Assembly (NCBI GenBank): GCA_902500705.1
Contig: CABVRR010000022.1
Span: 3,194-35,481, forward strand
Direction: 5' to 3'
Source of the DNA: an uncultured Nitrospira sp.
GTDB taxonomy: Bacteria; Nitrospirota; Nitrospiria; Nitrospirales; Nitrospiraceae
DNA: 32,288 nucleotides
This document shows, in pieces, positions 28,627-31,958 of the stretch. Within the stretch, counting starts at the first letter, position 1; each line of letters starts with the position of its first letter. The position numbers and the translations under genes are program-made. Under the pieces are notes generated by a model that saw nothing but the letters and a program-made list of their open reading frames with translations, was not told where the DNA came from and made no database searches.

Positions 28627-28677
28627 AGGTGAAGGTTGAGAGCCGAGACACTAAACTTTCTCGCTCAACCTTGACCT
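28627..28677. terminator. Long hairpin between convergent genes
   Basis: An almost continuous stem: AGGT/ACCT (28627-28630 with 28674-28677), AAGGTTGAG/CTCAACCTT (28632-28640 with 28664-28672), and an inner CGAGA/TCTCG (28644-28648 with 28659-28663), 18 pairs in all with a 10-base loop. It lies between convergent lipoprotein genes and touches the stop of the second. It may stop transcription in both directions, though neither side has a T-run. Confidence 0.55.
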
Positions 28678-29738
28678 TACTCTGGTCTTGCTGCTGCCGC
28701 CTTGAGCGGCACCGATACCCAGCTCGCCCCGGCGTCGGTGGAACGATAGAGCCCACTCCCGTTGGTGCCGGCATAGATGATCTGTGCATTCTTTGGATCC
28801 ATGGCCAGAGATCGCATGTTCAGCGTGGCGATTCCCCGATTCACCGCCTGCCAGGTTTTCCCACTATCCGAACTTTTCCAGACACCGCTGGGACCACCGA
28901 TATACAGCTGCGACGGTTCCTTCGGGTGAATGAGAATGCTGCTCACGAATGGCTCCGGAAGCAATTGGCCGATCCGCTCCCACTGCTCACCGTTATTCGC
29001 AGTGCGAAACAACCCTTTCGTCGTGCCCGCATAGACGATATCGGGGTTCGTCCGATCGATCTCAATCGCATTGACACCGAGCGCCATAGAGGCCATCAGT
29101 TCGCTTTCGGGAATGAGTCCGTTGTTGATCTTTTTCCAAGTTCCCGCTCCGTCGTCTGAGCGATACATCCCACCCGTCGTACCCGCGAACAAGATGGTAG
29201 GATCTTTGGGATTGATGGCAATGGATGTCACGATATGGACTTCCTTCATCCCGTTCATCCGTTCTTGCCATTCACGCCCCGCGTCCTTTGTGGAGAAGGC
29301 GCCCACCGTCGTCGCAATGTAGATTTTTTCGCTGAGGGCGGGATGGAACACGAATTGATTCACGAATGAGACATGTTCTTTGAGTCCGACATTATGCGGC
29401 AGCCAATGTTGCCCCCCGTCCGGACTCTTGTAGACTGCGTCCCCCATCGTCCCGGCATAGATCGTAGCCGGCAGCAGTGGATCGATCGCGAGCGTCGTCA
29501 CTCGGCGCGCACTGAAGCTAGGGAAACGCTCCCAAGTCCCACCCCCATCGCGAGATTTATACACCGCATCGTTCGTCGCGACGTAAAGGATATTCGCGTT
29601 CGTCGGATGCAGCGCAATCGAGACGACAGACTCGCTGTCCTTTTGGCAGCCAGTCGCACCGAATCCGATGAACAGAAGGGTCAAGACAAGCAGCAAGAAG
29701 TGACTGGACCGCAGCATAGTGGCGGCAGACCTAATCAT
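28677..29738 (-). CDS. Beta-propeller lipoprotein with seven Asp-boxes
   Basis: A 353-residue lipoprotein: signal peptide and lipobox with C31 (FGATGC), then repeats of about 45 residues. Each has an Asp-box-like motif: SRDGGGTW, SPDGGQHW, TKDAGREW, SDDGAGTW, TANNGEQW, SSDSGKTW and STDAGASW. Seven repeats suggest a seven-bladed propeller like Ycf48 and sortilin/BNR proteins, more likely a binding or assembly factor than a glycosidase. Start ATG 29738 or 29717; neither has a clear ribosome binding site. The stop lies within the hairpin at 28627-28677. Confidence 0.82.
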   Translation of the reverse strand: MIRSAATMLRSSHFLLLVLTLLFIGFGATGCQKDSESVVSIALHPTNANILYVATNDAVYKSRDGGGTWERFPSFSARRVTTLAIDPLLPATIYAGTMGDAVYKSPDGGQHWLPHNVGLKEHVSFVNQFVFHPALSEKIYIATTVGAFSTKDAGREWQERMNGMKEVHIVTSIAINPKDPTILFAGTTGGMYRSDDGAGTWKKINNGLIPESELMASMALGVNAIEIDRTNPDIVYAGTTKGLFRTANNGEQWERIGQLLPEPFVSSILIHPKEPSQLYIGGPSGVWKSSDSGKTWQAVNRGIATLNMRSLAMDPKNAQIIYAGTNGSGLYRSTDAGASWVSVPLKAAAARPE

Positions 29739-29800: not shown

Positions 29801-30160
29801 TTAGGCCGCAGTACCAATGAGGCTTTCCAAGGGAATATGCAACTTATGGTGAAGTCGACGGATCATCTCAAGCGAGAGATTTCGTTTCCTCGTTAGAATT
29901 TCTGACACGCGCCCGCGCCCGCCCAACACCGTCTCTAAGTCTTTCCACGTCATGCCAAGTTGATCCATCCGAAATGTGATCGCGTCGATCGGGTCGGGAG
30001 GACACATCGCGTAATGCTTCGCTTCATATGCCTCAACGAGCGTCGTTAACACGTCCAGCTCATCACCAGCCTTTGTACCAAACTTGGCGTCCATCAATTG
30101 TTCGATGCGTTTCAACGTCCGATCATAGTCTCGGACCGTTTTGATCGGAGCGATGGTCAT
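29801..30160 (-). CDS. higA: HigA-type antitoxin
   Basis: A 119-residue antitoxin of the HigA (COG5499-type) family. The C-terminal half is a Cro/C1 helix-turn-helix (MTWKDLETVLGGRGRVSEILTRKRNLSLEMIRRLHHKLHIPLESLI). The N-terminal half (about 1-60) is helical and presumably contacts the toxin. It should neutralise HigB and repress the operon. Ribosome binding site GGAGAGGA precedes the ATG. It is second in the operon, 16 bases after higB, the usual toxin-first order of higBA. Confidence 0.92.
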   Translation of the reverse strand: MTIAPIKTVRDYDRTLKRIEQLMDAKFGTKAGDELDVLTTLVEAYEAKHYAMCPPDPIDAITFRMDQLGMTWKDLETVLGGRGRVSEILTRKRNLSLEMIRRLHHKLHIPLESLIGTAA

Positions 30161-30176
30161 GATATTTCCTCTCCTG

Positions 30177-30470
30177 CTAGATGCCCGTCACATCGATCGC
30201 ATCGTACTCAGTGTGCGTACCGATGAATCGGACATACACCACTCGGTACGGATAATTAATTTTCACGACGAGCCGATACTGGTTCCCCGCCATGTTGAAG
30301 ACAACCCGATTGCCCGGCAAAACACTGGCCGAACGAAAGTGCGACTTGACCGCCGATGGGGAAGCCCAATCGGCATGCGCAACCTCCTGATGCCAGGCTT
30401 CCAAAGGCCCCTTGGCCTTTGGGTATCGCTTCCAGAAGTTCCGCAGTGCCCGCTTGGCAATAATGCGCAC
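30177..30470 (-). CDS. higB: HigB-type mRNA interferase toxin
   Basis: A 97-residue RelE-superfamily toxin of the HigB family. It shows RIIAKRALRNFWKRYPKAKGPLEAWHQEV, HADWASPSAVKSHF, and the conserved core RVVFNMAGNQYRLVVKINY...VYVRFIGTHTEYDAIDV. It should cleave mRNA at the ribosome. The start is set at GTG 30470; a TTG at 30476 lies inside the predicted -10 element. There is almost no room for a leader, so translation may be leaderless or start with weak recognition. It is first in the operon under the promoter at 30476-30504. Confidence 0.9.
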   Translation of the reverse strand: MRIIAKRALRNFWKRYPKAKGPLEAWHQEVAHADWASPSAVKSHFRSASVLPGNRVVFNMAGNQYRLVVKINYPYRVVYVRFIGTHTEYDAIDVTGI

Positions 30471-30475
30471 GAACA

Positions 30476-30504
30476 ACTATATCATGATCCCAAATTGGGA
30501 TCAA
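30476..30504 (-). promoter_or_regulatory. higBA promoter
   Basis: On the minus strand: TTGATC (30504-30499), a 17-base spacer and TATAGT (30481-30476). The palindrome at 30485-30503 lies over the spacer and part of the -35. The expected start is next to the GTG of higB. Confidence 0.6.
30485..30503. promoter_or_regulatory. Putative HigA operator
   Basis: TGATCCCAA, one central A, TTGGGATCA: a perfect 9-bp inverted repeat of 19 bases inside the promoter of higBA, the expected place for HigA autoregulation. Confidence 0.65.
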
Positions 30505-30619: not shown

Positions 30620-30943
30620 CATTTCGAAATAGGCAAAAAACTCACCGGCAAAGCACTCGCCGATTTCGAGGCAACGCGCGATGTGTGACAAGAAGTCCTG
30701 GGCGGCGTACGGGAGATCAAAGCCGGTGGAGGGAAGCGGACAAAGGTTGAAGCCAAATCGTACATTGTCCGTGTGCGGTTGAAGAGCGGACTCTCGCAGG
30801 CCAAGTTTGCCGCGGCACTCGGTGTGTCGAAACGTACCTTGGAGCAATGGGAACAAGGCCGCCGCAAGCCATCCGGCGCCGCGAAACAACTCTTGAAGAT
30901 TGCCGAACGTCATCCCGAGGTCTTCCTTGAGGTAGCGGCATGA
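30620..30943 (+). pseudogene. Antitoxin-type XRE regulator, broken by in-frame TGA
   Basis: Read in the frame ending at the TGA at 30941, the sequence gives HFEIGKKLTGKALADFEATRDV, then a stop (TGA 30686-30688), then 84 further codons: QEVLGGVREIKAGGGKR and a Cro/C1 helix-turn-helix (LSQAKFAAALGVSKRTLEQW) followed by EQGRRKPSGAAKQLLKIAERHPEV. This matches the RelE-partner antitoxins that end in an EQGRRxPSGAA helix. The TGA sits where a Trp or another residue is expected, and a start codon is not visible (ATA where ATG might have been; TAG at 30614 just upstream). A shorter product of about 56 residues from GTG 30773 cannot be excluded. No intact partner toxin is seen. Confidence 0.7.
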
Positions 30944-31034: not shown

Positions 31035-31958
31035 TTGAAGATCTTCGTTAGCTGGTCAGGACGGCTGAGTCATAAAGTAGCAACCATCCTCAGAAACTGG
31101 TTACCCAATGTAATACAGTCCATTGATGCCTATGTCTCATCAGAAGATATCGATAAGGGAACAAGATGGTCTCATGAGATTGCTAAAGAGCTGGAAGCAT
31201 CAGACTTCGGCATCATATGTGTTTCAAGAGACAATTTAAATGCCCCATGGCTCCTTTTTGAGGCTGGTGCACTCTCAAAGAAGTTTGAGAGTGGCCGCGT
31301 TTCTCCTTTCCTGATAGACCTAAAAATTACTGACATCTCAGGACCATTGGCGCAGTTCCAGGCAACTCCTTTTTCCAAAGAAGAGATTAAGAAACTAATG
31401 TACTCCATAAATAGATCGGCCGACATCCCTACTTTGCATAATGAAAGACTGGACAGTTCGTTTGATAAATGGTGGCCCGATCTGGAGAAAGACCTTACTG
31501 AAACAATTAGAACGACATCTGTAGATACGAGTTTCCAAGAGCCAAGATCTCAGCAGGAGTTACTTGAGGAATTAGTCAGGAACTCTCGGACTACCCTGCA
31601 CATGATTTCTGATCAGCAACCTCTTCTACGGTGGTCGTCCATACCACCTCGCCTCCCAGATCCAGTCACGCAGCCTATCGTATTAACTAGAAGCGTAAGC
31701 AGTGGTTGGCCTGGGAAGACCAATCTCACACCAGACCAAAAAAAGTTACTCGGTCACCTATACTATCAACAGGCACAAACCCTTGATGAACTAATTATGC
31801 ACACTAACCTACCTGCGCAGTATGTCATTGATATCATCCAGCAATTATCTAAGATGGTCTCGCAGAAGAATCAGGACGGCAAGTACTGGGCTATAACGTT
31901 CGATAAAAAATGGGCTCGTGCCCTTGCGGAGGAAGCTAGCAGAGAAAGGATAAGATGA
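31035..31958 (+). CDS. TIR-domain protein with C-terminal winged helix
   Basis: A 307-residue protein. Residues 1-130 are a TIR domain: KIFVSWSGRLSHKVATILRNW (1-22), DAYVSSEDIDKGTRW (31-45), FGIICVSRDNL and WLLFEAGALSKK with the candidate catalytic glutamate E76. This is the bacterial TIR_2-like type often found as an NAD+-degrading or signalling defence domain. A coiled region follows, then a winged-helix-like domain near 231-288 (LTPDQKKLLGHLYY...TLDELIMHTNLPAQYVIDIIQQLSK...DGKYWAIT). TTG 31035 is the only plausible start in the open frame; no ATG or GTG exists upstream of it. Twelve of its 18 arginine codons are AGA/AGG and its GC is lower than its neighbours', so recent acquisition is likely. 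Confidence 0.82.
   Translation: MKIFVSWSGRLSHKVATILRNWLPNVIQSIDAYVSSEDIDKGTRWSHEIAKELEASDFGIICVSRDNLNAPWLLFEAGALSKKFESGRVSPFLIDLKITDISGPLAQFQATPFSKEEIKKLMYSINRSADIPTLHNERLDSSFDKWWPDLEKDLTETIRTTSVDTSFQEPRSQQELLEELVRNSRTTLHMISDQQPLLRWSSIPPRLPDPVTQPIVLTRSVSSGWPGKTNLTPDQKKLLGHLYYQQAQTLDELIMHTNLPAQYVIDIIQQLSKMVSQKNQDGKYWAITFDKKWARALAEEASRERIR

Follow-up and report, generated by a model that had tools for sequence, protein, structure and literature searches.

A TIR-hinge protein with a winged-helix-like tail from Nitrospira as a putative single-protein abortive-infection NADase

The gene at positions 31035–31958 (+ strand) of the window, the whole 32,288-nucleotide stretch of Nitrospira DNA that was analysed, encodes a protein of 307 residues in which a TIR domain is followed by a hinge helix, a linker and a winged-helix-like tail. 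We think it fairly probable that this is a horizontally acquired abortive-infection NADase that works as a single protein and senses infection through its winged helix. One-gene TIR defence and the TIR-hinge family have been described before. Neither the winged-helix tail nor the quantified pattern of a constant TIR domain with a fast-changing tail was found in the open-access papers searched.

The open reading frame was confirmed. Its TTG codon is the only in-frame ATG, GTG or TTG start in a 333-codon open frame, and it lines up with Met1 of the relatives. The TIR domain (residues 1 to about 150; 31035–31484, + strand) matches the Pfam families TIR_2 (7.7e-10) and TIR (2.4e-5), both above the gathering score, and was modelled by AlphaFold2 with pLDDT mostly above 90. 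The model resembles the solved TIR domains of SPARTA TIR-APAZ, SpbK, SARM1 and AbTir. The putative catalytic glutamate E76 (codon 31260–31262, + strand), in the segment WLLFEAG, aligns with the glutamate of the AbTir WxxxE motif, and both E76 and W72 are invariant in the aligned relatives (112 of 112), so that the TIR landmarks named in the preliminary description, E76 among them, were borne out. The fold, the profile matches and a glutamate at the WxxxE position are all present and place the protein in the TIR family, as a putative NADase type. The closest solved TIR fold is that of SPARTA TIR-APAZ (Foldseek 6e-6, VIA-align Z 14.7). SPARTA has APAZ and a short Argonaute, whereas the window protein has a short winged-helix-like tail instead, and no Argonaute was found beside the gene in the ORF lists of its neighbours or in Pfam and PADLOC scans. 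IbfA was dropped as a comparison because it has no TIR.

Beyond the TIR domain the chain carries on as helices through residues 151–193, and the hinge motif found there is common to the family. The hinge helix itself (residues 173–193, QQELLEELVRNSR; 31551–31613, + strand) is amphipathic and of the family-wide motif type dILeEILelvR. Residues 199–228 (31629–31718, + strand) have pLDDT below 50 in the model and are probably a disordered linker.

When the whole model was submitted to VIA-align the list of matches was filled by TIR domains, and the C-terminal tail, residues 229–307 (31719–31955, + strand), was therefore modelled and searched separately. The resulting model has helices at 233–243 (H1), 250–257 (H2), 261–275 (H3) and 291–305 (H4), with two short wing strands near 278 and 284 between H3 and H4. 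H3 is the predicted recognition helix (31815–31859, + strand), and residues 278–284 form the predicted wing (31866–31886, + strand). These assignments agree in the model with the recognition-helix and wing segments that had been read from the sequence at the outset, at a moderate fold confidence (single-sequence AlphaFold, mean pLDDT 69, with 78–82 in the HTH core). In the fold search that the preliminary description had proposed, Foldseek ranks 1–5 were all MarR-type or MotA winged helices, and nearly all of the matches listed were MarR, Lrp/AsnC, LysR or similar winged-helix proteins (best E 0.17), while VIA-align gave a top Z of 6.0, to Lrp/AsnC proteins. No Pfam family reached threshold for the tail, the nearest being a YlxM-type HTH (0.027, residues 231–279) and DprA_WH (0.052, residues 229–267). 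Since the fold scores are low in absolute terms, a winged helix is the likely rather than the proven fold of this tail.

The window tail stands apart in sequence. By phmmer it had no significant match to the other family members, among which it forms a singleton cluster. Used alone as query, it found no relatives in viral contigs and only weak partial matches (best E 4e-4) among 398 genomes of the phylum of one Rhodopseudomonas carrier of the family (L003). A tail in a viral contig (L039) that looked similar by eye was dropped after BLASTP, phmmer and Pfam gave no support, and a weak match in a Zixibacteria genome (L058), which falls in a stop-containing frame, is probably noise.

Because the window tail is without sequence relatives, the figures on tail divergence come from other members of the family. 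The 112 aligned relatives are 26–54% identical to the window protein per block in residues 1–150 and about 5% identical in residues 196–300. The tails of 113 members fall into 78 phmmer sequence clusters, and where two TIR domains are at least 90% identical, the median identity of the tails is 0.33. We compared substitution rates in close pairs picked by hand, using a simple Nei-Gojobori estimate. For L120/L131 the TIR domain has dN 0.017 and dS 0.90 and the tail dN 0.457 and dS 0.89; for L037/L092 the values are dN 0.028 and dS 1.16 in the TIR domain and dN 0.584 and dS 1.30 in the tail. In a further pair, L127/L107, dS is less equal (0.92 in the TIR domain versus 1.87 in the tail). Over these three pairs, taken as equal in dS between the halves, TIR dN is 0.017–0.028 and tail dN 0.36–0.58, or 13–27 times the TIR value. 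The pair L012/L106 differs in kind: the TIR halves are 95% identical with dS 0.22, and the tails look unrelated, with saturated dS, which points to a probable recent tail replacement. Together with the equal-dS pairs, this suggests two modes of tail change, rapid substitution and exchange of the whole tail. Relaxed constraint could also account for the fast evolution of the tails. Most of them match nothing in Pfam and are not recognisably HTH; DNA-binding motifs nevertheless recur, in L124, whose tail passes the gathering score for HTH_24, and weakly in L117 and L128, which have low-scoring HTH matches.

The family to which the TIR and hinge belong is widely carried. The window protein matches the PADLOC TIR-TM model at 8.2e-84 over positions 1–201 of 293 and PHROG 13899 at 5.6e-73 over positions 1–195. 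The AC1 locus, which corresponds to PADLOC TIR-TM, is named Rst_2TM_1TM_TIR in DefenseFinder. Members are common in prophages and occur in the E. coli phages P2_AC1 and mEp390, and the family extends to plasmids and to genomes from many different phyla. Genes directly beside its members match PHROGs for Q antiterminators, holins, integrases and HNH/terminase genes, and single members adjoin AbiU or Thoeris genes. In IMG/VR, where prophage boundaries are predictions, one profile scan returned 88 relatives. This number suggests that prophages carry the TIR-hinge family more than was implied by a 2022 survey, which found TIR domains relatively infrequent in viral genomes (PMC9503650). On a Gloeothece verrucosa plasmid (L050, 4001–4843) the gene lies between cas1/cas2 and cas10/cmr3 in a type III-B CRISPR locus, and its tail (DLIIYVYSKS...) is common to L046 and to L024, a member in the phylum of the window. 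The small Acidithiobacillus plasmid pGT2 (L044) carries three TIR-domain genes, one of which is a family member.

Several observations support the view that the window gene was horizontally acquired. Its GC content is 44.7%, compared with 51–59% in 14 neighbouring genes of the window, which make up the whole reference set for both composition measures. Arginine is encoded by AGA or AGG in 12 of 18 codons, compared with 16 of 224 in those 14 neighbouring genes (Fisher p = 6e-9), and the AGA/AGG bias from which transfer had been proposed at first reading thus holds up when counted. The flanking ORFs comprise a HigBA pair, an HTH remnant, and HEAT-like and other genes. The HigB toxin and its HTH antitoxin lie at 29801–30476 (- strand; HigB_toxin 1.1e-29). 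A NadS-type HTH antitoxin remnant at 30632–30943 is interrupted by an in-frame TGA near 30686 and lacks an adjoining toxin. No partner gene was found in the flanking ORFs on either side or in the contig outside the window, and the gene is solo, as first described. In relatives of the genus, the chromosomal interval from the BNR-repeat gene (28677–29738 of the window) to the downstream AttH-like gene differs in nearly every genome; its contents include transposases, TauE-like permeases, HigBA and a second HigB-type toxin paired with an HTH antitoxin. A TIR gene is absent from it in all nine relatives in which the interval is covered, and the window gene is thus inserted at a variable site.

The same neighbourhood yielded further observations. 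PADLOC labels the HigB toxin and HTH antitoxin at 29801–30476 as PD-Lambda-2 A and B (3.5e-39 and 5.7e-41), with the B match covering the antitoxin part only (1–120 of 402). An intact antitoxin corresponding to the NadS-type remnant is present in the relative G016 (L178:1954–2575) together with a HigB-like toxin. Across the genus the BNR–AttH interval (L169, L171–L178) is a hypervariable integration site, and in G012 it holds a caspase/sulfatase-modifying-like protein.

The best functional model is SpbK of Bacillus subtilis ICEBs1, a mobile-element protein whose activation by a phage portal protein runs through the domain other than the TIR, whereupon TIR assembly creates the NADase site (PMC11984713, PMC12847820). 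Similar to the window protein, SpbK is one protein on a mobile element with a TIR NADase fold (VIA-align Z 13.5) and a separate sensor region. The order differs, as SpbK has its portal-binding sensor at the N terminus followed by the TIR domain and the window protein has the reverse, and the comparison is one of how the two would work, not of sequence kinship between the sensor parts. The divergence pattern of the family fits an unchanging killing domain joined to a fast-evolving sensor, after the manner of SpbK. We propose that the TIR domain at the N terminus acts as an NADase that is held inactive as a monomer or dimer, and that the winged helix, on its flexible linker, would detect a sign of infection, most probably a protein or a nucleoprotein complex of the phage. 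Binding of the trigger would cluster the TIR domains, a step modelled on SpbK, joining them through head-to-tail contacts to form a composite active site with E76. NAD+ would then be depleted, and the infected cell would stop growing or die. The tail is taken to be the sensor of a self-contained protein because it evolves fast while the rest of the protein stays constant.

It is unlikely that the trigger is DNA itself, either that of the phage or a particular DNA structure, bound by the winged helix and serving as the scaffold on which TIR domains cluster. The tail model does resemble the DNA-binding domains of MarR and Lrp/AsnC, and the HTH_24 match of the L124 tail lies in the same direction. 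However, the predicted recognition helix (LPAQYVIDIIQQLSKMVS) contains a single basic and a single acidic residue, the whole tail has 11 K+R versus 9 D+E, most family tails are not recognisably HTH, and a DNA ligand by itself would not explain such fast tail divergence. With a single basic residue in the predicted recognition helix, DNA binding by the tail is putative, and winged helices can act as protein-binding modules too. Of the DNA-binding-like tail in the preliminary description, the winged-helix-like shape is retained in the model and DNA binding is unproven.

The second alternative starts from the closest relative in defence. The TIR protein of the P2-like phage AC1 is 47% identical to the window protein over residues 1–198 and belongs to the same TIR-plus-hinge family; the two have in common the catalytic glutamate, the WSG and FEAGA motifs and a mobile-element location, and their C-terminal tails are unrelated in sequence. 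The AC1 three-gene locus gives E. coli C protection against three phages, lambda, LF82_P8 and P2 (PMC9122126), and this homology, with the PADLOC TIR-TM match, supports a link of the gene to defence. The AC1 protein is the only family member known in defence, and the experiments on it also included the two membrane proteins, which the window lacks. Their genes adjoin the AC1 TIR gene and the authors of that work propose messenger signalling (PMC9122126). The window TIR, being of the same family, might likewise produce a signal of the cyclic ADP-ribose type, activating an effector whose gene lies elsewhere in the genome or cell, as in Thoeris. This we regard as quite improbable. No effector gene adjoins the window TIR, and homologues of the AC1 membrane proteins are absent from the flanks (mostly 3–8 kb) of the other family loci that were fetched. 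The Thoeris protein ThsB has a TIR domain in common with the window protein, but there is no ThsA beside the window gene and the Pfam ThsB_TIR model does not match the protein. Genome-wide, neither ThsA nor an AC1 membrane protein was found, by searches that had no positive control and on an assembly that is about 86% complete. As the AC1 partners are lacking from the flanks of the other fetched loci, most family members look solo, and the general expectation that TIR effectors are paired with sensors does not hold for this family.

A TIR protein that regulates itself or other transcription, with the winged helix binding its own promoter and the TIR domain modulating it, is very improbable: the winged-helix fold is the one point in its favour, the recognition helix has few basic residues, and the location and family-wide diversity of the tail fit a sensor better, so that of the two roles first suggested, self-contained sensor or autoregulator, the sensor is the best reading and autoregulation is unsupported.

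The sensor reading of the window protein extends, more tentatively, to its relatives, which may form a large family, borne mostly by phages, of immune proteins encoded by one TIR gene each. In it a near-constant NADase would carry fast-evolving, exchangeable sensor tails, every tail being adapted to its own phage trigger, and the window version would have taken up a winged helix. To our knowledge, phage detection by bacterial TIR proteins is understood for few systems only. A near-invariant TIR domain in a protein whose tail changes 13–27 times faster at equal dS suggests that recognition evolves in the tail, and such fast change would be expected if the tail detects the invading phage.
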